Assembly: GCF_013184075.1 (NCBI RefSeq)
Contig: NZ_JABEQQ010000001.1
Span: 682,001-746,000, forward strand
Length of the DNA stretch: 64,000 nucleotides
Direction: 5' to 3'
Source of the DNA: Lentilactobacillus kribbianus
GTDB lineage: Bacteria > Bacillota > Bacilli > Lactobacillales > Lactobacillaceae
In this document: piece by piece, positions 10,104 through 61,668 of the stretch
Layout: each line of letters begins with the position of its first letter
Position numbering within the stretch: the first letter of the stretch is position 1
Translations under genes and position numbers: made by a program
The notes under the pieces: model-generated
Databases searched by the model: none
The model's input: the letters and a program-made list of their open reading frames with translations, nothing else
Told to the model about the DNA's origin: nothing

Positions 10104-10613
10104 TTAATTCGGTAGGCTCACTGCTTGAATATTGATAGCAAATGTGGCCGCAGGAGCATGGACTGTCACAGTTTCGCCTAAATGATGATTTAAAACAGCT
10201 TTACCTAAGGGAGAGGCAATTGATAATTTATTTTGGTCCACGTCCACTTCTTGGGTGCCCACAATTTGGTAAGTCACGGTTTCGTGATCATCTAAGAATT
10301 CGACGGTCACTAAATTACCGATTTCAACGGTGTCACTATCCGTGGGTGTGACAATTCGGGCGTACTGGAGTTGTTTATTTAAGAAGCGCAACTGACTTTC
10401 TAAATGGCGTAAATCACGCTTAGCCGAACTATATTCGGCGTTTTCTGATAAGTCACCGAGAGCCCGCGCTGCCGCTAAGCTTTGAATTTTGTGGGGCCGA
10501 TCAGCTTTTAGCGCCTCGATTTTAGCTTCGATTTGTTGGTAGCCGGCAGCAGTAATGGGATTGAATTCTGAATCGATGATGACGCACCTCGTTTTAGCAG
10601 ATTTACCTATCAT
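10104..10613 (-). CDS. GreA/GreB-family transcription elongation factor (second GreA-type)
   Basis: Cytoplasmic protein of up to 169 aa that would rescue backtracked RNA polymerase. The N-terminal coiled coil contains the family signature LGDLSENAEYSSAKRDL, followed by the C-terminal FKBP-like domain (TVEIGNLVTVEFLDDHETVTY). Only a weak ribosome site precedes the ATG at 10613. Homologues usually begin about 11 residues later, where a good GAGGTG stands before two ATC codons (10580 and 10577), so the true start could be a rare AUC. The sequence differs from housekeeping GreA, so it is probably a paralogue. Confidence 0.85.
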   Translation of the reverse strand: MIGKSAKTRCVIIDSEFNPITAAGYQQIEAKIEALKADRPHKIQSLAAARALGDLSENAEYSSAKRDLRHLESQLRFLNKQLQYARIVTPTDSDTVEIGNLVTVEFLDDHETVTYQIVGTQEVDVDQNKLSIASPLGKAVLNHHLGETVTVHAPAATFAINIQAVSLPN

Positions 10614-10670
10614 ATTACCGCAAAATGAGTTTAAAAAAACTAAAAAAGATTGATTGAAAGAAGTGATTTT

Positions 10671-11153
10671 ATGCGTTGGCTATTTGGCTTGATTTTGGCC
10701 TTATTGTTAACCGCCTGGTACTTACCTAAAGAAAATCGCAAACACCTTCATTTATGGGAATATCTTTATCTAATGACGGTGAATGTATTGGTGTTTACGC
10801 CATTGTCGATTACTGATTTTTGGATCAGTATCACTCCGTTAGGGACAGGGCGGGTATCTTTTGAAGTGTATCTTTGGCAATTTTCAGTTTTAGAAAATAT
10901 TTGGTTAACCATCCCACTGGGAGCTATGATAGCCAAACATCGACCAGCTTGGTCGTTGATAATTAGTGGTCTTGTGGTTGGTGGTGGGATTGAAACGATA
11001 CAATATCTCATTTCTCATTGGTGGTGGTTGAACCGAAGCTCTGATATCAATGACGTTATTGCTAATGCTATTGGGGTGATGATTGGGGGCGTTGTCTGGA
11101 AAGTGGGCAGTAAATTAAAGGGGAGCTTGACTACGGTCATGAAAGGAAACTAA
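10671..11153 (+). CDS. VanZ-family membrane protein
   Basis: Integral membrane protein of 160 aa with four to five predicted helices. The family pattern is clear: an N-terminal helix, VNVLVFTPLSI in the middle, ENIWLTIPLGAMI, and the C-terminal RSSDINDVIANAIGVMIGG, whose DxxDvxxNxxG motif marks VanZ. VanZ gives low-level teicoplanin resistance in enterococci; most chromosomal members have no known role. Start ATG 10671 lies 6 nt after GAAGTGA. It is divergent from the GreA-type gene and convergent with uspA. Confidence 0.85.
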   Translation: MRWLFGLILALLLTAWYLPKENRKHLHLWEYLYLMTVNVLVFTPLSITDFWISITPLGTGRVSFEVYLWQFSVLENIWLTIPLGAMIAKHRPAWSLIISGLVVGGGIETIQYLISHWWWLNRSSDINDVIANAIGVMIGGVVWKVGSKLKGSLTTVMKGN

Positions 11154-11157
11154 TCAA

Positions 11158-11192
11158 TAAAAAAAGATTTTGACCATTTTAGTCAAAATCTC
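11158..11192 (-). terminator. Terminator of the uspA transcript
   Basis: Minus-strand stem AGATTTTGAC / GTCAAAATCT followed by a run of seven T. The plus strand lacks a T-run, so it serves the minus-strand gene. Confidence 0.8.
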
Positions 11193-11228
11193 GTTGGGTT
11201 ATTAACGTTCACTTACCGCAGTCACTAA

Positions 11229-11678
11229 TTATTCATCTTGAGAAACAATCATAACGTTGTTATTAGCATAACGTGCCACGTAAGCAGTTGTCGAACCAAT
11301 CATGAGTCTAGTTAAGGCGTTGGCCCCTGACTTACCCATTACCGTTAAATCAATATCATATTCTTCCGGAATATCCTTAGCAATCATTCCCTTAGGACTA
11401 CCTTGGAAAACCTTAGTTTCGTAAGGAATATTACGGTTTTTCACTTCACTAACGGCCTTTTTGATGTAGCTTTCGGCTTCTTCAATCATTGGGCCAATTA
11501 ATTGATCCGGACCCACGGCGGTATGTGCTTCTAACATTACCCCAGAAACACGACCAGGATCAACTACGGAGACGATGAAAACTTTAGAATCGAACTTTTG
11601 CGCAATAGTTAAAGCTTCATCTAATGCTAAACGTGAATTTTCGGAACCATCTAAAGGAACTAAAATATTTTTATACAT
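11229..11678 (-). CDS. Universal stress protein, UspA family
   Basis: Cytoplasmic protein of 149 aa with the Rossmann-like Usp fold. It carries the ATP-binding signature G-2x-G-9x-G(S/T), visible as GKSGANALTRLMIGST, followed by AYVARYANNNVMIV. The N terminus MYKNILVPLDGS is typical. Members bind ATP and support stress survival; the exact role is unknown. AGGAGGTTATGTT precedes the start. It is monocistronic with its own terminator. Confidence 0.93.
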   Translation of the reverse strand: MYKNILVPLDGSENSRLALDEALTIAQKFDSKVFIVSVVDPGRVSGVMLEAHTAVGPDQLIGPMIEEAESYIKKAVSEVKNRNIPYETKVFQGSPKGMIAKDIPEEYDIDLTVMGKSGANALTRLMIGSTTAYVARYANNNVMIVSQDE

Positions 11679-11882
11679 AACATAACCTCCTGTTAGCTTT
11701 AATTAAAGTATTCTTTTACTATGTCTTAATTGTAAGGGAGAGTCAGTTCGTTTAGCAAAAACGACGCCTATTTAGATTCTGGTTTTGAATTAATCTATTT
11801 GTAACATGGTGTTAATTTGTCTGTAAATCCAGTTAGATATAATGAAAGTATTGAAGACGAATTTGGGGGAATTATTTTAACC

Positions 11883-12257
11883 ATGAAAATTAAAAAAATG
11901 GCACTAATGGCTGTTAGTTCATTGGCCTTATTTACTTCAGGTGATTTGTTAAACTTTACTAACGTGACCACACCGATGACCCAAGTGGCAAGCGCTAAAA
12001 CCAAGAAAAAGGTTTATAAGTGCAAATTATCTAAGAAAAATAAAGCAGCCAAAGAATGGATTGCTTATCGTGAATCTCGCGGCTCATACAGTGTTCGTAA
12101 TGGTCAATACATTGGTCGGTATCAGTTATCACGCGCTTACTTAAAGGGCGATTTCTCAAAATACAATCAAGAAATGACGGCCGACCGGTACGTTAAAAAT
12201 CGTTACGGTAGCTGGGTAAATGCGAAAAAGCATTGGCGTTGGTACGGATGGTACTAA
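11883..12257 (+). CDS. Small secreted transglycosylase/lysozyme-like protein
   Basis: Protein of 124 aa with an N-terminal signal peptide (MKIKKMALMAVSSLALFTSG, cleavage likely near VASA-KT), a short Lys-rich linker and a C-terminal lysozyme-like module: AAKEWIAYRESRGSYSVRNG, where the Glu of YRES is the presumed catalytic acid, then IGRYQLSRAYL and the closing WRWYGWY. This is the module of Apf and resuscitation-promoting-factor-like wall enzymes, here without LysM. I prefer ATG 11883, preceded by GGGGGA at 12 nt, since the upstream extension would bury the signal peptide. TATAAT at about 11837 is a likely -10 box. Confidence 0.75.
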   Translation: MKIKKMALMAVSSLALFTSGDLLNFTNVTTPMTQVASAKTKKKVYKCKLSKKNKAAKEWIAYRESRGSYSVRNGQYIGRYQLSRAYLKGDFSKYNQEMTADRYVKNRYGSWVNAKKHWRWYGWY

Positions 12258-12269
12258 ATATTCTAGTCA

Positions 12270-12306
12270 TTGAAACCTTCACAATTAGTTGTGGAGGTTT
12301 TTTTAG
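12270..12306 (+). terminator. Terminator after the small transglycosylase-like gene
   Basis: Stem AAACCTTCACAA / TTGTGGAGGTTT with a 4-nt loop and T-run. Confidence 0.8.
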
Positions 12307-12323
12307 TATGCTTATGAAAGCGG

Positions 12324-12351
12324 TTAATATTCAGTAAGACCCGAATATTAA
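12324..12351. repeat. Perfect 9-bp inverted repeat upstream of the xanthine-type permease
   Basis: TTAATATTC (12324-12332), 10-nt spacer containing CCCG, GAATATTAA (12343-12351). It overlaps one of two weak PurBox-like matches. Function is unknown; it could be an operator or a hairpin. Confidence 0.5.
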
Positions 12352-12420
12352 TAGTGATTTAACCGGAAAACACGAACAAAAAGATGACGAAAACCATTAT
12401 TTTTCCTGGAATTAAGAATA

Positions 12421-12465
12421 ATCTTCGTATTTTACATTGAATTTCAAAAGCGAAGATGATAATAT
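12421..12465 (+). promoter_or_regulatory. Promoter of the permease gene flanked by an inverted repeat
   Basis: TTGAAT (12437-12442), 17-nt spacer, TAATAT (12460-12465). ATCTTCG (12421-12427) and CGAAGAT (12451-12457) are inverted copies, one upstream of the -35 and one inside the spacer, which is where a repressor site would be expected. Weak PurBox-like sequences lie at 12337-12349 and 12367-12379. Confidence 0.4.
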
Positions 12466-12495
12466 TAGTCTAATTTAAAACAAATGGAGGTTGTC

Positions 12496-13806
12496 ATGGG
12501 AAATGATTCGGTTTCTAACCAAAAATCAGTAGTACGTAATGCAATTTTAGGGTTACAACATTTATTAGCAATGTATTCGGGCGATATACTTATTCCATTA
12601 CTGGTTGGTGGAGCGCTTCATTTTACGGCCTTACAAATGACTTACTTGGTGTCGACTGATATCTTTATGTGTGGGATTGCCACTTTTCTACAAATTAAAC
12701 GGACGCCGTTGACTGGGATCGGCCTGCCGGTGGTGCTGGGATGTGCAGTGGAGTACGTGGCACCGCTAGAAGCAATCGGCAAAAATTATGGCCTAGCTTA
12801 TATGTATGGTGGCATTATTATTGCGGGGATTTTCGTGATGTTGATGGCCAAGCCGTTTGCTAAGATGCGCCGGTTCTTTCCTCCGGTGGTTACTGGTTCT
12901 TTGATTACTTTAATTGGATTTACTTTGATTCCAGTAGCCTTTCAAAATATGGGCGGCGGGGACTTGACCAGTAAAAACTTTGGACAACCACTTAGCTTAA
13001 TGATTGCTTTGGTGACGGCGGTCACTATCTTGATTTTGAATATTTGGGGTCGCGGTTTCTTAAAGCAAATTTCAATTTTAATTGGAATTTTAGTAGGTAC
13101 CTTGTTGGCCTTTGGGATGGGTATTGTTAATTTTAAAACCGTTGGTCAAGCTAACTGGTTACAATTGCCACACTTCTTTTACTTTGCGACACCTAAGTTT
13201 GAATGGTCCTCGGCCTTAACCATGATTATGGCAGCTTTCATCTGTATGATTGAATCCACTGGGGTTTATTTCGCCCTAGCTGATATTGTGGGTAAAGATT
13301 TAAGCGACAATGATTTGGAACGGGGTTACCGTTCTGAAGGGCTTTCTGCGATTTTAGGGGGGCTCTTTAATACTTTTCCATACTCTACTTTTTCTCAAAA
13401 CGTCGGTATTGTGCAATTATCTGGAATTAAAACCCTCGCACCGGTTTATTATTCTGCCGGGATGTTAGTTATCCTGGGACTAGTACCTAAGTTTGGGGCA
13501 ATTGCGACCTTAATTCCTACCTCCGTCCTCGGGGGTGCCATGTTAGTAATGTTTGGGATGGTGGGCGCTCAAGGAATTAAGATGTTATCGAACGTGGAAA
13601 TGAACAATAAGAACATGTTAATTATTGCCATTTCAGTTGGGTTAGGCATTGGGGTTACTAGTGTACCTAGTTTGTTTCAATACTTACCAGCCAGCGTTCA
13701 AACTTTGATGAGTAACGGAATGGTTGTTGGTGGGCTAGCTGCTGTAATTCTCAATCTATTGTTAAATCATACTGGGGTTAAAGACCAGGTTGAAGAAGAA
13801 CTTTAA
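12496..13806 (+). CDS. pbuX: NCS2-family nucleobase permease, probably xanthine
   Basis: Membrane transporter of 436 aa with about 12-14 hydrophobic segments. N-terminal LGLQHLLAMYSGDILIPLLVGGAL and the central MIESTGVYFALADIVGKDL are characteristic of the xanthine/uric-acid branch of the nucleobase-cation symporter-2 family, and the latter holds the substrate-binding Glu. Start 12496 is preferred to the ATG at 12484 because TGGAGG lies 5 nt before it. No xpt gene is adjacent. The upstream region shows promoter and operator-like repeats but not the conserved core of a purine riboswitch. The exact base transported is inferred. Confidence 0.82.
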   Translation: MGNDSVSNQKSVVRNAILGLQHLLAMYSGDILIPLLVGGALHFTALQMTYLVSTDIFMCGIATFLQIKRTPLTGIGLPVVLGCAVEYVAPLEAIGKNYGLAYMYGGIIIAGIFVMLMAKPFAKMRRFFPPVVTGSLITLIGFTLIPVAFQNMGGGDLTSKNFGQPLSLMIALVTAVTILILNIWGRGFLKQISILIGILVGTLLAFGMGIVNFKTVGQANWLQLPHFFYFATPKFEWSSALTMIMAAFICMIESTGVYFALADIVGKDLSDNDLERGYRSEGLSAILGGLFNTFPYSTFSQNVGIVQLSGIKTLAPVYYSAGMLVILGLVPKFGAIATLIPTSVLGGAMLVMFGMVGAQGIKMLSNVEMNNKNMLIIAISVGLGIGVTSVPSLFQYLPASVQTLMSNGMVVGGLAAVILNLLLNHTGVKDQVEEEL

Positions 13807-49874: not shown

Positions 49875-50468
49875 ATGACCAAAACGGTAATTATTGCGAG
49901 TAAAAATGACCACAAAGTAGCTGAATATAAGCAAATGCTAAGCGACGTAGATGTTGACGTAAAGTCGTTAGCTGATTTCGCCGATGTGCCAGAAATCGAT
50001 GAAAATGGCGCTACTTTTTCGGAAAATGCTCATATTAAAGCAGCTGCGATTGCCAATCATTTTCAATTACCAGTAATTGCTGATGATTCCGGCTTGATGG
50101 TACGAGCATTAAACAACGAACCGGGAGTACATTCGGCTCGTTATGCGGGAGATCATGATGACGCCGCTAATCGGGCCAAGGTATTAGCTAAATTAACGGA
50201 TAAAACAGATCGTTCGGCAGTTTTTCACACGACGATTGTGGCGCAAAAACCAAATGGCTCAGTGTTAGAGACGGTGGGGGAAGTGCCCGGCCAAATTGTC
50301 AAAGAACCACGTGGTTCGGAAGCCTTTGGCTATGATTGTCTCTTTTTACCAGATGGTAAAGATAAAACATTTGGTGAAATGACTAAAGAAGAAAAAGATG
50401 AAGACAGTCACCGCGGTCGGGCGTTAGTGAAATTATTGGCGCAATTTGACGAATGGTGGCATGCTTAA
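49875..50468 (+). CDS. rdgB: Non-canonical purine NTP pyrophosphatase (XTP/dITP diphosphatase), RdgB/HAM1 family
   Basis: House-cleaning enzyme of 197 aa that removes ITP, dITP and XTP from the nucleotide pool. Typical segments are IASKNDHKVAEYKQM at the start, VIADDSGLMV, EAFGYDCLFLPDG and the closing EKDEDSHRGRAL. AGGAGG gives strong initiation. The next gene, encoding the HTH-PfkB fusion, begins at its stop codon, which links it to the nucleoside locus. Confidence 0.95.
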   Translation: MTKTVIIASKNDHKVAEYKQMLSDVDVDVKSLADFADVPEIDENGATFSENAHIKAAAIANHFQLPVIADDSGLMVRALNNEPGVHSARYAGDHDDAANRAKVLAKLTDKTDRSAVFHTTIVAQKPNGSVLETVGEVPGQIVKEPRGSEAFGYDCLFLPDGKDKTFGEMTKEEKDEDSHRGRALVKLLAQFDEWWHA

Positions 50469-50469
50469 A

Positions 50470-51579
50470 ATGCCTGATAATAACGAACTGACCAAACGTG
50501 AACAACAAATTCTAGAATGGATTCAACAGGATCCGATGATTAGTCAAAATGATTTGGCCAAATTAGCTGGAATTTCGCGCTCCGGTGCGGCAGCTCATAT
50601 TTCTAGTTTGATGAAAAAGGGCTACCTCAAGGGCAAAGGCTATATTGTGGCTGAAAAACGCTATGCTTTAGTCATTGGTGGGATCAACATTGATACTTAC
50701 GGAATGGCTACGCAAAATTTCACTACTAAAACTTCTAATCCCGGACATATTTCGCACCAAATTGGGGGATTAGGGCGTAATATGGCACTGAATTTACGTA
50801 AATTGGGAGTGTTTAATTACTTTATTACGGCTTATGGTGATGATTTTTGGGGTGAACAATTTAAGGCGGATGTGGCTAATAACAACATGGATATTAGTTA
50901 TGCCAAACAATTTTCAAACCAAAAAACCTCTAACTATATTTATTTAAACCGCGCTAATGGTGAGCGTTTTATCGGTTTAGATGATATGGGCATTAACGAT
51001 TTGATTACTCCCGAGTTTTTACAACAACGCTTAGAAATTATTAAGGCGGCTCAATACCTGATAATTGATACTAATTTACCTCAAGCAACGATTGACTGGT
51101 TAGCGGCTAATTATAGTGGTCCCCTTATTGCTAAGGCGGTCTCAATTACCAAAACTGGGCGTTTGAAATCCGTCCTAAACCAGTTAGATACCTTAGTGAT
51201 TAATGGGGTAGAAACTCCTATTTTAACCGATATTGATCCGTTAAACCGCGCCCTCGCCGAACGAGCTGCGGCTAGTTTAGTGAAGCAAGGAGTCACCAAT
51301 GTCTTTTTGTATGTTGATGGTTTGGGTGCCGTCTATGCTAACCAAAAAGAAATAAAATACTTCAAGCAACCTAATTCACAAATTCTGAATACTAATGGCG
51401 ATGGTGCCGCTGCGACGGCCGCTATTGTCTTTGCTAAAATCAAGCAAATGGACTTTGATTTAACTGGTAAAATGGGAACGGCAGCAATGGCAATTACCGC
51501 CAAAAGTCAAGAGTCCGTAAATGCAGAGATGAATTCACATTTGTTAATTGAAACTGCAAATAAAATTAAAGTGAGCTGA
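50470..51579 (+). CDS. Winged-helix regulator fused to a catalytically dead PfkB-like kinase domain
   Basis: Protein of 369 aa. Residues about 1-60 form a winged helix (LTKREQQILEWIQ, NDLAKLAGISRSGAAAHISS). The rest is a PsuK-like PfkB domain (GGINIDTYG, GGLGRNMALNLRKLG). In active relatives the C-terminal motif is NxxGAGD; here it reads NTNGDGAAATAA, so the catalytic base Asp is Ala. The sister kinase at 51734 has intact NGAGD. I read this as a sensor that binds the operon's nucleoside and controls transcription. ATG 50470 restarts after the rdgB stop; ATG 50461 is possible. Confidence 0.85.
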   Translation: MPDNNELTKREQQILEWIQQDPMISQNDLAKLAGISRSGAAAHISSLMKKGYLKGKGYIVAEKRYALVIGGINIDTYGMATQNFTTKTSNPGHISHQIGGLGRNMALNLRKLGVFNYFITAYGDDFWGEQFKADVANNNMDISYAKQFSNQKTSNYIYLNRANGERFIGLDDMGINDLITPEFLQQRLEIIKAAQYLIIDTNLPQATIDWLAANYSGPLIAKAVSITKTGRLKSVLNQLDTLVINGVETPILTDIDPLNRALAERAAASLVKQGVTNVFLYVDGLGAVYANQKEIKYFKQPNSQILNTNGDGAAATAAIVFAKIKQMDFDLTGKMGTAAMAITAKSQESVNAEMNSHLLIETANKIKVS

Positions 51580-51605
51580 GAAAAATTATTCTCAGCTTTT
51601 TTATT
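51572..51605 (+). terminator. Terminator after the HTH-PfkB gene
   Basis: Stem AGCTGAGAA / TTCTCAGCT with T-run, separating regulator and operon transcripts. Confidence 0.85.
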
Positions 51606-51642: not shown

Positions 51643-51671
51643 TTGACAACGCTTCCAAAATGTTATATCTT
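51643..51671 (+). promoter_or_regulatory. Operon promoter overlapped by a cre-like site
   Basis: TTGACA (51643-51648), 17-nt spacer, TATCTT (51666-51671). TGACAACGCTTCCA (51644-51657) matches the cre consensus at 12 of 14 positions and covers the -35, which predicts CcpA repression. Confidence 0.65.
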
Positions 51672-51677
51672 AATACC

Positions 51678-51707
51678 AACAAATGTTAATGCTAGCTAAC
51701 AATTGTT
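51678..51707 (+). promoter_or_regulatory. Inverted-repeat operator candidate downstream of the promoter
   Basis: AACAAATGTTA (51678-51688), 8-nt spacer, TAACAATTGTT (51697-51707). The arms pair at 10 of 11 positions. It begins 7 nt after the -10 box, where a repressor would block transcription. The nearby HTH-PfkB protein is the obvious candidate. Confidence 0.6.
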
Positions 51708-51733
51708 TAGAAGATTTTTAGGAGGATTCTAAC

Positions 51734-52687
51734 ATGAGAAGCCAAAACAATGCTTTGGAAGACTACGTTGTTGTAATTGGTGGAATGAACATGGACATTT
51801 TCGGAATGCCCCATGAAAAGGTAATCGACCGTGACTCTAATCCTGGAGAAGTTGGGATGACGGTTGGTGGCGTTGGCCAAAATATTGCTCAAAATCTAGC
51901 TCATTTGGATGTACCAACCTACTTAATTACGGTATTTGGTGATGATTACAACGGTAAGTTACTCAGTGCTTCATGTGCTGAAAACAACATTCGCTTAGAT
52001 TATGCTGCTGAAATCAAAGGTGAACGTTCTTCAACTTACATGTACATTACGGATGAAACTGGCGACATGCTAGTAGGTGTTAATGACATGGGTATTTGCG
52101 AAAATATCTCACCAGAATTTCTGGCCCAACGGTTAGATTTCATCAATGGTGCCAAGGTTTGTCTAGTCGATGCTAACTTATCTAAAGAAACCATCGATTG
52201 GATTGGCGCTAACGTAACTGCACCATTGTTTGGTGATACTGTGTCAGTTGCTAAAGCTCGTCACTTCGAAGATATTTTAGACAAGATGCATACTTTAAAG
52301 CCTAATGCGCTTGAAGCTAGCTTGTTAACTGGAATCGAAATTCATGACGAAGCTTCTGCTAAGCAAGCGGCTCAAGCACTACTTAATATGGGCGTGGAAA
52401 ATGTCTATATTTCATTGGGAGCTGCTGGAATTCTTTGCGCCGACAACGACAAGATGGTAGTTATTCATCCATTTAAGACCAATATCGTTAACGCTAACGG
52501 TGCCGGTGATTGTGGGATGGCAGCCATTACTTGGAGTTACTTCGATAATCCAGAACGTAACTTAGGTGAAATTGGCCGGATTGCCCAAGCCGCATCAGCT
52601 ATTACCCTAGAAAGTTCTAAATCAGTTTCAGATATTACTATTAATCAAATCTTTGCTAAATTAGCTAGCATGACGGTCGTACTTTAA
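51734..52687 (+). CDS. PfkB-family nucleoside kinase, PsuK-like
   Basis: Cytoplasmic kinase of 317 aa. It closely follows the E. coli pseudouridine kinase pattern: VVIGGMNMDIFG, SNPGEVGMTVGGVGQNIAQN, TLKPNALEASLLTG and catalytic NANGAGDCGMAA. PsuK phosphorylates the 5'-hydroxyl of pseudouridine; related enzymes act on other nucleosides. The usual partner PsuG, which splits pseudouridine 5'-phosphate, is not in this operon. AGGAGG precedes the ATG. It is the first of seven same-strand genes with short gaps. Confidence 0.85.
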   Translation: MRSQNNALEDYVVVIGGMNMDIFGMPHEKVIDRDSNPGEVGMTVGGVGQNIAQNLAHLDVPTYLITVFGDDYNGKLLSASCAENNIRLDYAAEIKGERSSTYMYITDETGDMLVGVNDMGICENISPEFLAQRLDFINGAKVCLVDANLSKETIDWIGANVTAPLFGDTVSVAKARHFEDILDKMHTLKPNALEASLLTGIEIHDEASAKQAAQALLNMGVENVYISLGAAGILCADNDKMVVIHPFKTNIVNANGAGDCGMAAITWSYFDNPERNLGEIGRIAQAASAITLESSKSVSDITINQIFAKLASMTVVL

Positions 52688-52714
52688 TATTTATATTTTT
52701 TGGAGGAAAGCGAA

Positions 52715-53407
52715 ATGATTAAACAAATTTATTCTTTGATTCAATATGATGAATCAGTTAAAACAATGGAAGCCGGTGCCGATAACATTGGTTTAGTACC
52801 AATGCAAAACGGTGGTGTGCCTGCTCATCGAGTTCCAATCGAACGAGTTCACAAAATTTTTGATGAAGCTAAACGTCGGGGCGTAACATCAGTGGCTATT
52901 ATGCTAACTAATGATCCTGAAGAAATGCTTCAAATTGCTGAAGAAGTTCAACCAGATATTTTGCATGTTGCTGGTGATGGCTACGCTGCTACCCCAGAAT
53001 TTGCTAAACGTCTAAAAGAAATTGCGCCTAACACTGAATTAATGCAAGCTGTTTTAGTTGATAATGAATCAGCGATTGATCGGGCCAAGAAATTCGCCGA
53101 ATACGTTGATTACATTTTGCTTGATTCAGGCTTAGCTCCAGATACTGGAATTGGTGCCAGTGGCCAAACTCACGATTGGGATATTGATGCTCGAATCGTT
53201 CAAGAAGTTAACGTTCCCGTAATTGAAGCTGGTGGAATGGGTCCTGACAACGTGGCCGAAGCCATTGCTAAGATCAAACCTTACGGAGTGGATTCATTAA
53301 CTAAAACTAGTATCAAATACGAAGGCGGTAACATGGAAAAGGATATCGACAAAGTTCGAGCATTCTGTGAAGCTGCTGATAAAGCTGCGGCTGAATTGGG
53401 ACTTTAA
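52715..53407 (+). CDS. TrpF-like (phosphoribosylanthranilate isomerase-type) barrel protein without the catalytic Cys
   Basis: Protein of 230 aa with a TIM-barrel pattern. Marks of TrpF are GADNIGLVPMQNG, HRVPIERVHKIF, ILHVAGDGYA, DYILLDSG (the catalytic-type Asp), VIEAGGMGPDNVAEAI and the phosphate-site GVDSLTKTSIKYEGGNMEKD. The N terminus reads MIKQIYSLIQYDE where TrpF has KICG, so the base Cys is missing. There are no trp genes around. It may act on a phosphorylated nucleoside or ribosylamine made by the upstream kinase. GGAGG precedes ATG 52715. Confidence 0.75.
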   Translation: MIKQIYSLIQYDESVKTMEAGADNIGLVPMQNGGVPAHRVPIERVHKIFDEAKRRGVTSVAIMLTNDPEEMLQIAEEVQPDILHVAGDGYAATPEFAKRLKEIAPNTELMQAVLVDNESAIDRAKKFAEYVDYILLDSGLAPDTGIGASGQTHDWDIDARIVQEVNVPVIEAGGMGPDNVAEAIAKIKPYGVDSLTKTSIKYEGGNMEKDIDKVRAFCEAADKAAAELGL

Positions 53408-53412
53408 TCTCA

Positions 53413-54060
53413 ATGGGGGACGTAACAACGACTAAGAGTCGTCTAACCGTTAAAAAAGTGGTCGTTGCGATGTTGGGCATCTTTCTAGTTTGTCTAGGCG
53501 TGGCGTTTAATAACAACACTGGCCTAGGTAATGATCCGGTCGGTATTGTTTATGACGGTATTCGCGCTGCCTTTCACATTCCGTTGGTGCGGCTAGGATT
53601 TGTTTCTAACTTTATTAACGTTGGACTAGTCATCATTTTATGGTTAATTGGTCGTCACTACGTTAATATTGGGACCGCCATGTACCTGATTCCCTACGGC
53701 TTATTCATTACCATTGGTTCTCATTTATATCCGTTGATTTTTACCAGTCACACATTGCCTACCCGGTTATTGGGAGCGGCAGTGGGGATTAGCCTGTACT
53801 ATGTCGGCATTAGTTTGTTTGTTGCCGCTGACATTGGGGTCGACCCTTTTAATGGTTTTATGTTAACGATTCGAGATCGAACTGGTTGGAGTATTCGCCG
53901 GAGCAAGATTACCTTTGACGTTGTTTTGATGACTGCGGGCTTCCTACTTGGTGGGAAGTTTGGTCTCATCACCATTGTAACCGCTTTAACGACTGGTCCA
54001 ACGATTCAGGCGTTAGGTGGCTGGTTTCAACAACATCTGTTTAACGAAAGGAAGAAATAA
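53413..54060 (+). CDS. YczE/YitT-like integral membrane protein
   Basis: Protein of 215 aa with about five to six helices. Segments LGVAFNNNTGLGNDPVGIVYDGI and SLFVAADIGVDPFNGFMLTI form the repeat typical of the YczE group. These proteins are presumed transporters, with no settled substrate. It starts 6 nt after the TrpF-like stop and lacks a strong ribosome site, so coupling is likely. A relative is encoded at 61012-61668. Confidence 0.72.
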   Translation: MGDVTTTKSRLTVKKVVVAMLGIFLVCLGVAFNNNTGLGNDPVGIVYDGIRAAFHIPLVRLGFVSNFINVGLVIILWLIGRHYVNIGTAMYLIPYGLFITIGSHLYPLIFTSHTLPTRLLGAAVGISLYYVGISLFVAADIGVDPFNGFMLTIRDRTGWSIRRSKITFDVVLMTAGFLLGGKFGLITIVTALTTGPTIQALGGWFQQHLFNERKK

Positions 54061-54061
54061 T

Positions 54062-55222
54062 TTGGTAAATTATAAAATGCTTCAAAATGTCAAAGTGGTT
54101 AACACCGATAACTTGGCTGAGACCTTACTAGATATTTTGAATACAGAGGGCTACAAACGCCCATTATTCGTCATGGATGGTTTCTTAAACACCGTGGAGA
54201 CGGTGGTAGCTGCTAAACAAAAATTAGCTGACAATAATATTGAATATGCTGTTTTTGATAAAATCGTTCCTGATCCACCAGCTGAAGTAGTTGATGCTGG
54301 GGTTAAAGCGTTTAATGATAATAATTCAGATAGTATCATCGCTATCGGTGGTGGTAGTTCGATTGACGTTGCTCGCGGCATTAACATTGTTCGCGTTAAC
54401 GGTGGTAACATTAGAGACTATGCTGGCGAAAGTCGAGAAATTGCCCACACTCCAGGCTTGATTGCTGTGCCAACCACTTCTGGTACGGGTAGTGAAATGT
54501 CTAATGCGTTAGTAATTACTAACAAAGAAACGCAACAAAAAATTGCCATTTTAGCTGACAATGCGGTCAGTGAATACGCCGTATTGAACCCAGATTTGGT
54601 ATTAACTTTGCCAAAAGGGATGACCATTGCGACTGGATTAGATGCTTTTTCTCACGCCGCTGAAGGTTACTTATCTAACTTGGCCACTCCTATGACTGAT
54701 GCACTTTGCGAAAAAGTAATGTTTTTACTTTATAACTATTTACCAACTGCAGTTCACGATGGTCAAAATCGGGAAGCTCGCGAACGCGTAATGGTGGCTG
54801 CTAGTTTAGCTGGTTGGATGCTAAACAATGCCGGTACTAACATTGGTCATTCTACCGCTCACATCTTAGGTTCTAAATATCACATTGTTCATGGTGAAGC
54901 CGTTGCTTATGCCTTGCCAGGTGTGTTGGAACTAGTTGGTCACGCTATGCCTAAGAAGGTTCGCGAAATTGGTCAAATTTTGGGGGCTACTTTCCCAGCA
55001 GATGCCACTCCAGAACAAATTATTGAAATTACAGTTACAAGTTATAAAGACTTCCGCGACAACGTTTTAGGTCTTCATTCATTTACTGATTATGAAATTT
55101 CTAGCGATGAAATCGTTAAGAATGCTGACGAAGTTTTACACGAACGATTTGCCGGTAATACACCAGTTGATTTGACTGTTGATAACGTTACCGCTTATCT
55201 CCGCAAATTTGGTCAACAATAA
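54062..55222 (+). CDS. Iron-containing alcohol dehydrogenase family protein
   Basis: Oxidoreductase of 386 aa (group III ADH). The nucleotide-binding motif is AIGGGSSIDVARG. The metal ligands are visible as Asp and His in GLDAFSHAAEGY and two His in IGHSTAHILGSKYHIVHGE. In this operon it could oxidise or reduce a sugar-derived aldehyde or ketose. The start is TTG 54062, 6 nt after AAAGGAAG, and ATG 54077 is possible. It is 1 nt after the YczE-like stop. Confidence 0.88.
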   Translation: MVNYKMLQNVKVVNTDNLAETLLDILNTEGYKRPLFVMDGFLNTVETVVAAKQKLADNNIEYAVFDKIVPDPPAEVVDAGVKAFNDNNSDSIIAIGGGSSIDVARGINIVRVNGGNIRDYAGESREIAHTPGLIAVPTTSGTGSEMSNALVITNKETQQKIAILADNAVSEYAVLNPDLVLTLPKGMTIATGLDAFSHAAEGYLSNLATPMTDALCEKVMFLLYNYLPTAVHDGQNREARERVMVAASLAGWMLNNAGTNIGHSTAHILGSKYHIVHGEAVAYALPGVLELVGHAMPKKVREIGQILGATFPADATPEQIIEITVTSYKDFRDNVLGLHSFTDYEISSDEIVKNADEVLHERFAGNTPVDLTVDNVTAYLRKFGQQ

Positions 55223-55240
55223 AACTATGAGGTGAACAAC

Positions 55241-56425
55241 ATGAATTTTGTCTTTTTACTTACAGGAATGGCGTTAGTGTTTGTAGTTGGTTGGTTAATT
55301 AGTAGCGATCGCAAACACATTCGTTACATGTCCATGCTTCGTTTATTCATTCTTCAAGCCGTTATTTCTTTCCTATGTTTACATACAACTGGTGGGATCA
55401 ACGCCTTGAAAGGTATTTCTGCATTCTTTAGTTGGTTAATGTCACAAGCTGCCGGCGGGGTTGATTTCGTCTTTGGTGGTTTGATGATTAAGCCCGGTGG
55501 TTCCGTATTTTTCTTAACTGTTTTAATGCCAATCGTCTTTATTTCCGCTTTGGTTGGGATTTTGAACTACATTAAGGTTTTGCCATTCATTATCAAGTGG
55601 ACCGGTTGGGCTTTAAACAAAGTTTCTGGCATGGGTGAACTAGAAAGTTACTTTGCCGTTTCTACTGCCGTATTAGGTCAACCAGAAGTTTTCTTAACCA
55701 TTAAAGATCAAATTTCTAAATTAAACGAACAACGTTTATACACTATCTGTGCCTCAGCAATGAGTGCCGTATCAGCTGCAATGTTAGCTTCATACATGAA
55801 GATGGTGCCTGGTAAGTTCGTCGTTGTAGCGGTATTTTTAAACATTCTATCTTCATTGATTGTGTCATGTATCGTTAACCCTTACGAACCAGTGGCTGAA
55901 GATGAAACAGTCGAAGTTCAAGAAGGCGAAAAAGAATCATTCTTCCAAATGCTAGGTGGCTACATTACTGATGGTTTCAGTTTAGCTATTACCGTTGGGG
56001 CCATGTTAATTGGTTTCATTTCATTGGTTACCTTCTTAAACAACAGTTTTATTGCCGTTATTCACATTAGCTTTACTGAATTAATTGGTTACGTTTTTGC
56101 ACCAGTAGCTTTCTTAATGGGAGTTCCTGCTCACGATATCGTTAAAGTTGGTAGTTTGATGGCCACTAAGTTAATCACTAACGAATTCGTTGCCATGGGT
56201 AGCTTACATGAAATGGCTGCTCAATTAAGTGCTAAATCTCATGCAATTATTTCTGCTTACCTCGTTTCATTTGCCAACTTCGGTACCATCGGAATTATTA
56301 CTGGTTCAATCAAATCAATTAGTTCCCAACAAGGTGCTTACGTTGCTAAGTTCTCAATGAAATTATTATTGGGTGCTACTTTAGCATCAGTCTTGACCGG
56401 TACGATTGTTGGATTCTACTTCTAA
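55241..56425 (+). CDS. Concentrative nucleoside transporter, NupC/CNT family
   Basis: Membrane protein of 394 aa with about ten helices. CNT marks are the TAVLGQPEVFLTIK segment (the family's GQTEAPL site), ASAMSAVSAAMLASY, and LMATKLITNEFVAMGSL. The cytoplasmic-loop stretch AEDETVEVQEGEKES is acidic. CNT proteins import nucleosides with H+ or Na+. It provides the substrate for the kinase and hydrolase of this operon. GAGGTG lies 7 nt before ATG 55241. Confidence 0.88.
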   Translation: MNFVFLLTGMALVFVVGWLISSDRKHIRYMSMLRLFILQAVISFLCLHTTGGINALKGISAFFSWLMSQAAGGVDFVFGGLMIKPGGSVFFLTVLMPIVFISALVGILNYIKVLPFIIKWTGWALNKVSGMGELESYFAVSTAVLGQPEVFLTIKDQISKLNEQRLYTICASAMSAVSAAMLASYMKMVPGKFVVVAVFLNILSSLIVSCIVNPYEPVAEDETVEVQEGEKESFFQMLGGYITDGFSLAITVGAMLIGFISLVTFLNNSFIAVIHISFTELIGYVFAPVAFLMGVPAHDIVKVGSLMATKLITNEFVAMGSLHEMAAQLSAKSHAIISAYLVSFANFGTIGIITGSIKSISSQQGAYVAKFSMKLLLGATLASVLTGTIVGFYF

Positions 56426-56444
56426 GAAATAAAGGAGCTTAGTT

Positions 56445-56837
56445 ATGAAATCAAATCGTCAAAATCTATCATTATTAGTCGTATTAGTAGTCATCTTATT
56501 TGCCTTAGGTAATGCCATTGCGTTTGTGTTAGGCAACAGTCATCCAGATATCAGTTCCTTAGTTCGCTCAATCGTATTTGTGGCAGCCCTTTACGGGTGG
56601 GCACTAGTTCGAGTACTAGGGAATAAACTGTTTGCGCTACCATTTCTAGGGTTTATTGACTTCGTTTATGCGGTTGGTTTTGTTAGCAACATCTCGGTAG
56701 CGATGATGAAGATTTCGGGCTTTGCTCTTGGTGCGGTAGTGGCGATGAGTATTTTAGGGATTATCCTAAGTGTTTTCACCTTTATCGCGGCTAAAAACGT
56801 GATTAGTACGCAATCAGTTGCTCATTCAAATAATTAA
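56445..56837 (+). CDS. Small membrane protein in the nucleoside operon
   Basis: Protein of 130 aa with four predicted helices (about residues 8-30, 37-57, 63-83, 90-115) and short polar ends. I do not recognise a family. AAAGGAG 7 nt before the start and 15-19 nt gaps on both sides show it is a true member of the operon. Confidence 0.65.
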   Translation: MKSNRQNLSLLVVLVVILFALGNAIAFVLGNSHPDISSLVRSIVFVAALYGWALVRVLGNKLFALPFLGFIDFVYAVGFVSNISVAMMKISGFALGAVVAMSILGIILSVFTFIAAKNVISTQSVAHSNN

Positions 56838-56852
56838 TTGGAGGAATTTACA

Positions 56853-57794
56853 ATGACAAAAACAAAAATTATTCTTGATTGTGATCCAGGCCATGATGAC
56901 GCCTTAGCAATGATGCTTGCCGTGGCTTCACCTAAGATTGAATTGGCTGCGGTAACTACTTCGGCTGGTAACCAAACCCCAGAAAAGACGTTAAATAACG
57001 CGATGCGGATGTTAACGCTACTTAACCGGCAAGATATTCCGGTAGCTGGTGGGAATCGCACACCATTGGTGAAACCATTAGAAACGGCTGGTAATGTTCA
57101 TGGTAAGTCTGGTTTGGACGGAGCTGAATTACCAGACCCTGACTTTAAACCGCAAGACATGACGGCCATTGAATTGATTGCCAAAACTATTAGTGAGTCT
57201 AAAGAACCAATCACGCTGGTTGTAACTGGTCCAATGACTAATGCTGCCTTATTCTTACGCGTTTACCCAGAATTAGGACAAAAACTGGAACGCATCGTTT
57301 ACATGGGTGGGGCCATGGGCTTAGGTAACTGGACACCATCCGTTGAATTTAATATTTACGTGGATCCAGAAGCTGCCAAGATTGTCATGAATGCGGGAAT
57401 TCCGTTGACCATGGCACCATTAAACGTTACCCACAAGGCGCAAATTACTAAAGAAGAAATTGCTGAGTTAGATCAGATTGATAACCCAGTCGCTCACGCC
57501 TTTTATGGTTTGTTGAACTTCTTTGAACTTTATCATGAAGCACCTAAGTGGGGATTCTTCGGAGCCCCTTTGCATGATCCATGTACCATTGCCTGGTTAA
57601 TTGATCCAGATATGTTTGAAAGTGAGTACATGAACGTGGACGTGGAAACTAAGGGTGAATTAACCACTGGGGAAACGGTTTGTGATTACTACGAATTAAC
57701 TGGCAAGCCTAAGAATACCGATGTGTTATTGAATATTGATCGGGATAAATTTATTCAATTGATTAAAGATTCATTAGCTACTTTTAATAAATAA
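56853..57794 (+). CDS. Nucleoside hydrolase (pyrimidine-type RihA/RihB-like)
   Basis: Enzyme of 313 aa. [12 protein letters not shown] binds calcium; [32 protein letters not shown] and [10 protein letters not shown] match the family, the second His-containing loops being of the pyrimidine-preferring kind. It cleaves ribosides to ribose and base. It is the last gene of the operon before a terminator. It differs from the paralogue at 29420-30379. Confidence 0.92.
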
Positions 57795-57801
57795 TAGTTA
57801 A

Positions 57802-57843
57802 TAAAAAGATCGTCATTGTCTGTGAGCAGTGACGGTCTTTTTG
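57802..57843 (+). terminator. Terminator of the nucleoside operon
   Basis: Stem AAAAAGATCGTCA...TGACGGTCTTTTT. Confidence 0.8.
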
Positions 57844-57854
57844 TTTTGAAAATG

Positions 57855-60176: not shown

Positions 60177-61040
60177 ATGAGTTTTGCAGCACGCAGACTG
60201 CAACGGCGATTAACTTCGACCGATTATAAACGGGTGGTTGCAGAAAGATTCTTAAACCCGGATCAAAAAGTTAATATTTTTAAGGAGCACCCCAACTGGG
60301 CCGCATCGGTAATTCCGATGGGCGGCGGTCAATTAGTGGAAATGTATGCAGATCAGCCGATTCAAGGGCAATTATTATATTTTCACGGTGGGGCCTTACG
60401 GGTGCCACTCAACGAAGAGCAGCTTGATTTCATTGATTCTTTGGCGCAGGCTAGTCATAGTAAACCATTTATCGCTGATTATCCGCTATTAAACGAGGAA
60501 ACTGATGGTGCTCAAATTATTCAATTTGCCGAAGAGGCTTTAGAGTGGTTAGGAGAAGACGGTAAGACTACTACCATTGTGGCTGATTCAGCTGGAGCTT
60601 GGTTGGCTTTTTACCTATTATTAACTCACGATAATTTGATTAATTCAGCTATTTTAGTGTCACCATGGCTCAATTGGAATCTCAGTGATCAACCAGTAGT
60701 GGAGCGGGCAGCCGCAGACGTAATGTTAGATATTCCGACTCTACGCCAAATTGGTAAACAGTTCTGGATGGGCTTAACAGATGCCCAACGGCAAACCTTC
60801 ACGCAAGAAACACTCTCAGTCACGAGCCCGGTCCAAATTCTGTACGGTAATGACGAAATGTTGGTACCTGATAGTGAAGGGTTGGCCGATGATTTGTCAG
60901 AAAATAACCCTAACGTGACCATTACGCGATTTAAAGACGGCTTTCATGATTTTATCTTATGGCCCGATTTACCAGAAACAAAAAAAGCCATCAATGCGAT
61001 GGCGGAGTTTCTTAAAGATCAACGTGGTGTTTCAAACTAG
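60177..61040 (+). CDS. Alpha/beta hydrolase, hormone-sensitive-lipase-like esterase
   Basis: Cytoplasmic protein of 287 aa. The oxyanion motif is YFHGGAL, the nucleophile elbow VADSAGAWLA (GDSAG-type), the acid lies in GNDEMLVPD and the His in FHDFILWP. This is the HSL/steryl-acetyl-hydrolase group, acting on short-chain esters. GGAGGTGC precedes the ATG. Its 3' end overlaps the convergent membrane-protein gene by 29 bp. A cre-like site suggests carbon control. Confidence 0.87.
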   Translation: MSFAARRLQRRLTSTDYKRVVAERFLNPDQKVNIFKEHPNWAASVIPMGGGQLVEMYADQPIQGQLLYFHGGALRVPLNEEQLDFIDSLAQASHSKPFIADYPLLNEETDGAQIIQFAEEALEWLGEDGKTTTIVADSAGAWLAFYLLLTHDNLINSAILVSPWLNWNLSDQPVVERAAADVMLDIPTLRQIGKQFWMGLTDAQRQTFTQETLSVTSPVQILYGNDEMLVPDSEGLADDLSENNPNVTITRFKDGFHDFILWPDLPETKKAINAMAEFLKDQRGVSN

Positions 61041-61668
61041 GAAAAACGTGAGAATCAGACCATTTCATTACCGCTCCTTGGGTCACAATCGCCCAAACAG
61101 TTCCGAAGCCAATAGCGTGGACCGTTCCAGTGAAAATATAGGTTAAAATAATAATGGTCACTGGAGGAATATAGCTCAACCATTGGGCCGAGACGGCATT
61201 ACCATGGGCGTATTTAAAGCGAATAATGTAAGCTAGATCATCATTGGGATGCATAATTAAGTTCGAGCGGCTGTAGATGGAAACAGCGGCAGCCACGCCA
61301 AACAACCCAACGATGTCTAAGATTAGCCGGGGGATTAACTCCAGTTGAGATACCCCAAGAAATTGCCAAATATAACCGGTCCATTCAACTAGGTAACTAA
61401 AGGGAATAGTGTACATGATGTTAGAAACAAACCGACGACGATCAAAATGGCCTAATAAGAATTGGTTTAAAATAGTAACGGCTACCCCATAAATAAACAT
61501 GGCCGTTCCTAAAGGAATACCAGTCCAAGCCGACAAGTTAACCCCTGATCCGGTCCAAACGGCACTCCCCAAGTTAGAGGCAATGGCCAGTGAATTAGAG
61601 GCAGCATTGATAAAAATTGAAATCACCAGAAAAAACATCCGCTGGTTAAAATCTTGCATTTTTGCCAT
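61012..61668 (-). CDS. YczE/YitT-like membrane protein
   Basis: Protein of 218 aa with five to six helices. NLGSAVWTGSGVNLSAWTGIPLGTAM (positions 32-57) is the N-terminal repeat, and a second, SNLIMHPNDDLAYI, lies past residue 130. It is similar in layout to the protein at 53413-54060 but not close in sequence. GGAG precedes the start. Function unknown. Confidence 0.72.
   Translation of the reverse strand: MAKMQDFNQRMFFLVISIFINAASNSLAIASNLGSAVWTGSGVNLSAWTGIPLGTAMFIYGVAVTILNQFLLGHFDRRRFVSNIMYTIPFSYLVEWTGYIWQFLGVSQLELIPRLILDIVGLFGVAAAVSIYSRSNLIMHPNDDLAYIIRFKYAHGNAVSAQWLSYIPPVTIIILTYIFTGTVHAIGFGTVWAIVTQGAVMKWSDSHVFPSLKHHVDL

Follow-up and report, generated by a model that had tools for sequence, protein, structure and literature searches.

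An operon of Lentilactobacillus kribbianus, located in the 64,000-nucleotide stretch analysed here (contig NZ_JABEQQ010000001.1, positions 682,001 to 746,000; the whole stretch is called the window below), is on balance best read as a pathway for pseudouridine catabolism that works without PsuG and uses a TrpF-fold barrel protein and an iron-containing alcohol dehydrogenase (Fe-ADH) in its place. Its genes are designated A (PsuK-type kinase), B (barrel), C (YczE-like membrane protein), D (Fe-ADH), E (CNT-type nucleoside transporter), F (small membrane protein) and G (nucleoside hydrolase), and a gene upstream of them, U1, encodes a candidate regulator. The reading is built on the gene set, its conservation and co-occurrence, the absence of PsuG, the residues of the kinase pocket and of the active sites, and pairs of operator-like dyads. 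A first-pass annotation of the same DNA had proposed that the barrel and the alcohol dehydrogenase replace PsuG, and we infer the same.

In E. coli, PsuK and PsuG correspond to YeiC and YeiN, and the transporter is PsuT. Kinase A matched the Pfam family PfkB with 142 bits, and E. coli PsuK (EcPsuK) was its best relative among solved structures (E 1e-57). The residues of EcPsuK that contact pseudouridine were taken from PMC9247573; according to the same source, EcPsuK is inactive on uridine and other normal nucleosides and retains 6.8% activity on N1-methylpseudouridine. All of these contacts (N14, D16, S30, G41, V42, N45, Y97, M114, N143, V166, S167 and K170) were identical in all 27 A kinases, and the catalytic Asp of the GAGD motif was likewise present in every one. 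The residue check covered 22 A kinases first, and five were added later. Over the 22 kinases 54 of 288 positions were invariant relative to EcPsuK, which gives p ~1e-10 for the retention of all 13 contact and catalytic residues and p ~6e-6 for that of the seven base contacts. Nearly all base contacts were missing from ribokinase and from four PfkB kinases found in other barrel contexts, with the kinase of L003 keeping one, V166. Pseudouridine is thus well supported by the sequence comparison as the substrate of kinase A, and the earlier identification of a PsuK-like kinase in a nucleoside operon was strengthened.

No match to the PsuG family (PF04227) was found in any of 397 Lactobacillaceae genomes, the source genome included, or in seven further genomes or records, among them two Bifidobacterium genomes and four plasmid records. 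In a control, the same family was detected in three of 14 known genomes (E. coli, T. composti and T. maritima). A PsuG encoded elsewhere in the source genome was rejected on the basis of this search, and the first-pass description of a PsuK-like kinase without PsuG was supported for this genome.

Genes A, B and D co-occurred in 27 of 27 intact type-1 loci, that is, loci with a close relative of the window's barrel (the window, L007–L019, L043–L050 and L080–L084, from Lactobacillaceae and bifidobacteria). Their order was A-B-D in all 27, with the YczE gene inserted between B and D in 18, and the gene order described for this strain is therefore conserved well outside it. A chance neighbourhood was rejected because the three genes were together in every intact locus. 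All 27 loci were found via the barrel, many are from close species, and in two (L007 and L045) the contig ends within the locus. The counts leave out L020–L039, L058–L071 and L092–L121, which are short stretches of loci present in longer form or of U1-like genes treated apart, as well as the decayed locus L002 and the weak actinobacterial matches L072–L079. U1 was present in 26 of the 27 loci; it lies downstream in L046, is divergent in L048–L050 and is absent from L081. The seven genes first proposed as the operon are real, but as a unit they proved too narrow, since U1 was omitted, and also too wide, since the YczE, CNT, small membrane protein and hydrolase genes are each found in only part of the loci (counts in Table 1).

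The barrel was found in 19 of the 397 Lactobacillaceae genomes, representing 10 of 40 genera, and in 10 of 121 Bifidobacterium-family genomes, where seven were of type 1 and 69–81% identical to B of the window. Two separate searches placed kinase A (at least 53% identity) and the close barrel in exactly the same 19 of 397 genomes; seven further Lactobacillaceae genomes matched the kinase A search by a U1-like protein only. So patchy a distribution, combined with high sequence identity across two phyla, suggests that the operon moved horizontally between genera and between these phyla. In a phylum sample of 398 genomes, three weak matches were found besides the genome of the window, all TrpF-like by their Cys. 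In genome G238 a U1-like gene was broken and a hydrolase remained, and neither A nor B was found; around the match of L091 no related neighbour gene was seen.

The AlphaFold2 model of barrel B had a pLDDT of 93.6 (26-row alignment), and its ten best Foldseek matches were TrpF structures, with PDB entry 1nsj at TM 0.77 by query and 0.86 by target (26% identity). The barrel shares with TrpF of Thermotoga maritima (PDB 1nsj/1lbm) the fold and Asp126, whose equivalent, Asp137, was aligned and invariant in the barrel family. The catalytic Cys of TrpF, which is Cys7 in T. maritima, is Tyr6 in the barrel, and this Tyr was found in 30 of 30 aligned relatives, which include 20 of the 27 type-1 barrels as well as members from the type-2 operons, rhizobia and Halostella described below. 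Three TrpF-like matches carried Cys at this position, and the distant barrel of L005, outside the 30-row alignment, carried Ala. In addition, the TrpF sequence SSGVE reads SLTKTS in the barrel, and other barrel invariants include H84, H153, D154, D193, T198 and K209. Barrel B fell under every curated TrpF cut-off (best 93.7 versus 215 bits), and it adjoins a kinase in a genome in which TrpC was not found, while 14 of 14 control genomes were positive for TrpC. A function as TrpF was therefore rejected.

In the Fe-ADH (D), residues D194, H198, H263 and H277, which we take to be the Asp-His-His-His metal ligands, and the GGGS cofactor motif G96–S99 were invariant in the 27 type-1 proteins; the alignment omits the L002 fragments, one L046 paralog and six type-2 enzymes. 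The enzymes nearest to D act on alcohols and small aldehydes. For the remaining products, transporter E had the Pfam N, Gate and C domains and missed the NCBIfam nupC cut-off (359.8 versus 442 bits), hydrolase G exceeded the RihA cut-off (521.6 versus 433 bits), and the hydrolase of the Bifidobacterium copy L018 exceeded the UriH cut-off instead. The NCBIfam YczE match of C was weak (77 bits, cut-off 205) and no Pfam match was obtained for it; F had no match in Pfam or NCBIfam.

The catalytic steps and the transport proposed here are inferred from sequence. Transporter E would import pyrimidine nucleosides including pseudouridine, and hydrolase G would handle ordinary N-nucleosides; a RihA-type hydrolase is not expected to cleave a C-nucleoside. 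Kinase A, to judge from its intact PsuK pocket, would form pseudouridine 5'-phosphate. TrpF carries out an acid-assisted furanose opening and then moves a proton from C2'. Barrel B may open the ribose ring of pseudouridine 5'-phosphate as TrpF does with phosphoribosylanthranilate, the uracil pushing out the ring oxygen as in the TrpF reaction, and such a uracil-driven opening is supported by the known furanose/pyranose epimerisation of pseudouridine. After ring opening, a C2' proton shift could give an Amadori-type ketone, or a retro-aldol cleavage between C2' and C3' could give glyceraldehyde 3-phosphate and uracil-5-acetaldehyde. The Fe-ADH with NADH would then reduce the carbonyl product, for example to 5-(2-hydroxyethyl)uracil. 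Cleavage is tentatively favoured because D, with its metal site and cofactor motif intact, accompanies B in every intact copy, because its nearest relatives are alcohol and small-aldehyde enzymes, and because isomerisation and reduction alone would waste ATP and NADH. In its fullest form, the proposal makes the barrel a new C-C lyase that gives glyceraldehyde 3-phosphate and uracil-5-acetaldehyde, has barrel kin from type-2 operons, rhizobia and a haloarchaeon perform an analogous step with other PfkB kinases on other ribosyl phosphates, and has a dead pseudouridine kinase serve as sensor; in this complete form it is tentative and may well not hold.

Both U1 and a paired-dyad operator inside the promoter region had gone unnoticed in the first-pass annotation. 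U1 is a helix-turn-helix (HTH)-PfkB paralog of kinase A, and its true start may be an in-frame ATG near 50464. Its best NCBIfam match was PRK09954 'sugar kinase' (190 bits), which is presumably E. coli YeiI and has the same HTH and PfkB architecture; U1 differs in scoring below the 561-bit cut-off and in having lost the catalytic Asp, in place of which all 26 linked copies carry A, G, S or T. The pocket is mostly retained, with V42 varying among the 26 copies. These features make U1 a likely dead-kinase sensor of the ligand of kinase A, which would recognize pseudouridine or its phosphate and act at the paired-dyad operator. Operator pairs were associated with U1, which is proposed to bind both the operator and pseudouridine.

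A pair of TAAACAnnTGTTTA dyads (at least 17 of 24 positions, spacing 19–21) was found ahead of A in 26 of the 27 loci, with a spacing of 20 bases in 22, 19 in three and 21 in one. In 23 of the 27 loci the pair reached p ≤ 0.05 against shuffles (a crude two-base shuffle with a floor of 1/301), while in L008–L010 it was not beyond chance alone (p 0.09–0.12). Among the 27 loci scored, no pair was found in L081, the sole locus without U1. The motif was first seen by eye and then scored, a repeat search of the DNA did not report it, and the count is partly circular because the motif was recognised on several of the same 27 loci. In L008–L010, L014–L017 and L082 the pair lies at or past the start of the longest open reading frame (ORF) taken for A, and this start was therefore read as called too early. 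Independent support came from the seven genomes with a U1-like protein and no A, since in five of them that gene is closely followed by an operator pair (perfect in four, with 12 and 11 of 12 positions in one); of the two without a pair, one is truncated by the end of its contig shortly past the gene and the other has a broken gene. No operator pair was found at type-2 loci. In all five of these orphan U1-like proteins N14 is Thr, M114 is Ser and V166 is a gap, suggesting that the pocket is partly altered in proteins that seem to control other genes, and the dead-kinase regulator type seems to have been re-used for another system.

In three orphan loci (L122 2819–6987, L125 3005–7209 and L126 3009–7187) a perfect pair stands directly ahead of a gene for a glycoside hydrolase family 28-like protein and a sugar-transporter-like gene; the families downstream in L126 were confirmed as Pfam Glyco_hydro_28 and MFS_2. 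In L081, which has neither U1 nor an operator pair, a Cas9 gene (10243–13650; NCBIfam TIGR01865, over the cut-off) lies directly downstream of A-B-D.

The barrel family was also found in other contexts. In a differently built operon, termed type 2 (seven loci: L051, L052, L085–L088 and L090, from Levilactobacillus, the Bifidobacterium family and an Actinomycetota sample), it is likewise joined with a PfkB kinase, an Fe-ADH and nucleoside hydrolase(s), together with a divergent LacI-PfkB regulator, ECF transporter components S-T-A-A, a phosphoglycolate-phosphatase-like HAD protein and an MFS transporter; the type-2 Fe-ADH is distant (23–28% identical to D). On rhizobial plasmids (L003, L004 and L053) the barrel occurs with an RpiR-type regulator, a sugar ABC transporter, a PfkB kinase and a pyridoxal-phosphate enzyme of the Cys/Met-metabolism family, which is methionine-gamma-lyase-like and below the cut-off. 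A plasmid of the archaeon Halostella (L006, 8001–10578) carries barrel, PfkB and nucleoside hydrolase genes in a row. Distant barrels (31–33% identical) were found on plasmids of Agrobacterium vitis, Corynebacterium aurimucosum and Streptomyces lavendulae (L005, L056 and L057), in each case near Upp, tautomerase and PsuG-like genes and an adenylation-domain or AMP-binding gene. These three clusters resemble minimycin-type biosynthesis, to which Upp and nonribosomal peptide synthetase genes belong (PMC8724604); the available part of that paper names no TrpF-like gene in such clusters. The closer barrel family presumably acts beside PfkB kinases on ribosyl phosphates, and kinase A is taken as the component that would fix the type-1 substrate.

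Several observations weigh against a PsuG-free pseudouridine pathway. Kinase A scored 217.8 bits, under the NCBIfam PsuK cut-off of 540, and is therefore termed PsuK-type rather than PsuK. Barrel relatives in type-2 operons, rhizobia and Halostella (31–40% identical) pair with PfkB kinases without the pseudouridine pocket, so that the barrel family is not pseudouridine-specific. The pocket of U1 is incomplete (of 26 copies, five carry Ser for N143, seven Gly for S167 and two Phe for Y97), and the five orphans, with other apparent targets, still keep S30, Y97, N143, S167 and K170; the U1 pocket signature is thus not fully diagnostic. L002 (8001–9829), from a plasmid of Limosilactobacillus mucosae, is a decayed copy with a shortened barrel and an alcohol dehydrogenase annotated as two genes; it has these pieces of B and D and neither A nor U1 within the stretch read. 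In 23 of the 27 copies there is a nucleoside hydrolase nearby, although it is not expected to act on pseudouridine. Finally, a barrel that released just uracil and ribose 5-phosphate would leave the Fe-ADH without an obvious job.

This last outcome would follow if the barrel were a non-homologous pseudouridine-5'-phosphate glycosidase that, like PsuG, yields uracil and ribose 5-phosphate, with the Fe-ADH only balancing redox. The missing PsuG and the complete kinase pocket are consistent with such an enzyme, ring opening could also begin a glycosidase route, and ribose 5-phosphate would enter ordinary pentose metabolism. The presence of D with B in 27 of 27 loci and of a distant Fe-ADH near the type-2 barrel argues instead for a carbonyl product of the barrel, and we regard the glycosidase as unlikely, though it deserves serious weight. 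It is also conceivable that the operon serves ordinary ribonucleosides, with a RihA hydrolase freeing ribose, A acting as ribokinase, and the barrel and Fe-ADH processing ribose 5-phosphate or another sugar phosphate. The frequent hydrolase and the pocket-less PfkB kinases of type-2 operons, Halostella and rhizobia would suit this explanation; the 13 PsuK residues shared by all 27 A kinases, with PsuK the nearest solved structure, would not, and a plain ribose route should need neither barrel nor Fe-ADH. Furthermore, no hydrolase was seen in the stretch read around A-B-D of L050 and L081, nor in that of L045, where only 864 bases follow D. This explanation is considered improbable.

We give still less credit to another uracil-like C-nucleoside as the substrate, such as N1-methylpseudouridine or an antibiotic of the C-nucleoside type that the cell would detoxify. 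The residual activity of EcPsuK on N1-methylpseudouridine and the distant barrels in three plasmid clusters, with their likeness to minimycin biosynthesis, speak for it, whereas the nucleoside importer, the hydrolase and the cre-like promoter would rather suggest nutrition. A deoxyribose route, in which the kinase would form deoxyribose 5-phosphate and the barrel would be an aldolase giving acetaldehyde for the alcohol dehydrogenase, fits in outline with a kinase, a barrel and an aldehyde-reducing enzyme. It was rejected as hardly credible because DeoC is encoded separately in the genome, over its curated cut-off; in addition, the family name of G refers to ribonucleosides and the pocket of A resembles that of PsuK.

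The pseudouridine operon proposed here and the E. coli PsuK-PsuG system have in common a PsuK-type kinase with identical pseudouridine contacts, a nucleoside transporter and a catabolic setting; they differ in that PsuG is absent from the 397 Lactobacillaceae genomes and the genes after the kinase include those of a TrpF-fold barrel and an Fe-ADH. The bifidobacterial RbsR2 and RbsR3 regulons likewise place a kinase, a nucleoside hydrolase and a nucleoside transporter under a local regulator, but this is a LacI-family protein with another operator, and no barrel or Fe-ADH is named in the available part of the source (PMC4746261). Among the matches listed in a search of open-licence PubMed Central literature by titles and abstract openings, which does not prove absence, nothing was found that dealt with Lactobacillaceae or bifidobacteria using pseudouridine, with a barrel in the place of PsuG, or with the predicted uracil products. 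If true, the PsuG-free route of these fermentation and gut bacteria would add a second enzymatic solution for a C-nucleoside and would show how such bacteria could use pseudouridine as food. The barrel family would gain a candidate substrate, and a pseudouridine sensor derived from a dead kinase would represent a new type of regulator that might also serve for detection.

The seven operon genes were confirmed, all on the + strand and separated by 1–27 bases, and Pfam matches backed the kinase, the PRAI barrel, the Fe-ADH, the CNT transporter and the nucleoside hydrolase. The first-pass claim of seven closely packed genes with their own promoter and terminator was recovered in its coordinates, promoter-like site and strong terminator hairpin (Table 1), although promoter-like sites are common by chance (26 found versus 22.5 expected in the window). 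The cre-like sequence matches 9 of the 10 specified positions of what we take to be the cre pattern, and its overlap with the -35 box would fit catabolite repression.

Table 1. Features of the operon region (positions in the window)
Feature	Coordinates	Strand	Evidence
U1: winged HTH and PfkB-like protein, proposed local regulator	50446..51579	+	Pfam HTH_24 and PfkB
Terminator-like hairpin between U1 and operon	51573..51598	+	
Promoter-like site TTGACA-17-TATCTT with overlapping cre-like sequence at 51643-51657	51643..51671	+	
Proposed operator: two TAAACAnnTGTTTA dyads, 20 bases apart	51676..51709	+	19/24 positions, p 0.003 by shuffles
A: PsuK-type kinase, proposed pseudouridine kinase	51734..52687	+	38% identity to E. 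coli PsuK; 13/13 residues kept
B: TrpF-fold barrel, proposed PsuG replacement	52715..53407	+	Tyr6 for TrpF Cys7; Asp137 kept
C: YczE-like membrane protein, accessory	53413..54060	+	Weak NCBIfam match; 18/27 loci
D: Fe-ADH, proposed reductase of the barrel's product	54062..55222	+	Metal site and cofactor motif invariant
E: CNT-type nucleoside transporter	55241..56425	+	Pfam Nucleos_tra2 N and C, Gate; 19/27 loci
F: small membrane protein	56445..56837	+	Without family match; 15/27 loci
G: RihA-type pyrimidine ribonucleoside hydrolase	56853..57794	+	NCBIfam RihA; hydrolase nearby in 23/27 loci
Stretch with operon terminator hairpin	57795..57850	+	-24.8 kcal/mol, z -7.4

About 3 kb downstream of the operon, the window also contains a 218-residue membrane-protein-like ORF on the opposite strand (61012–61668, -), whose match to YczE was very weak (23.5 bits, cut-off 205).

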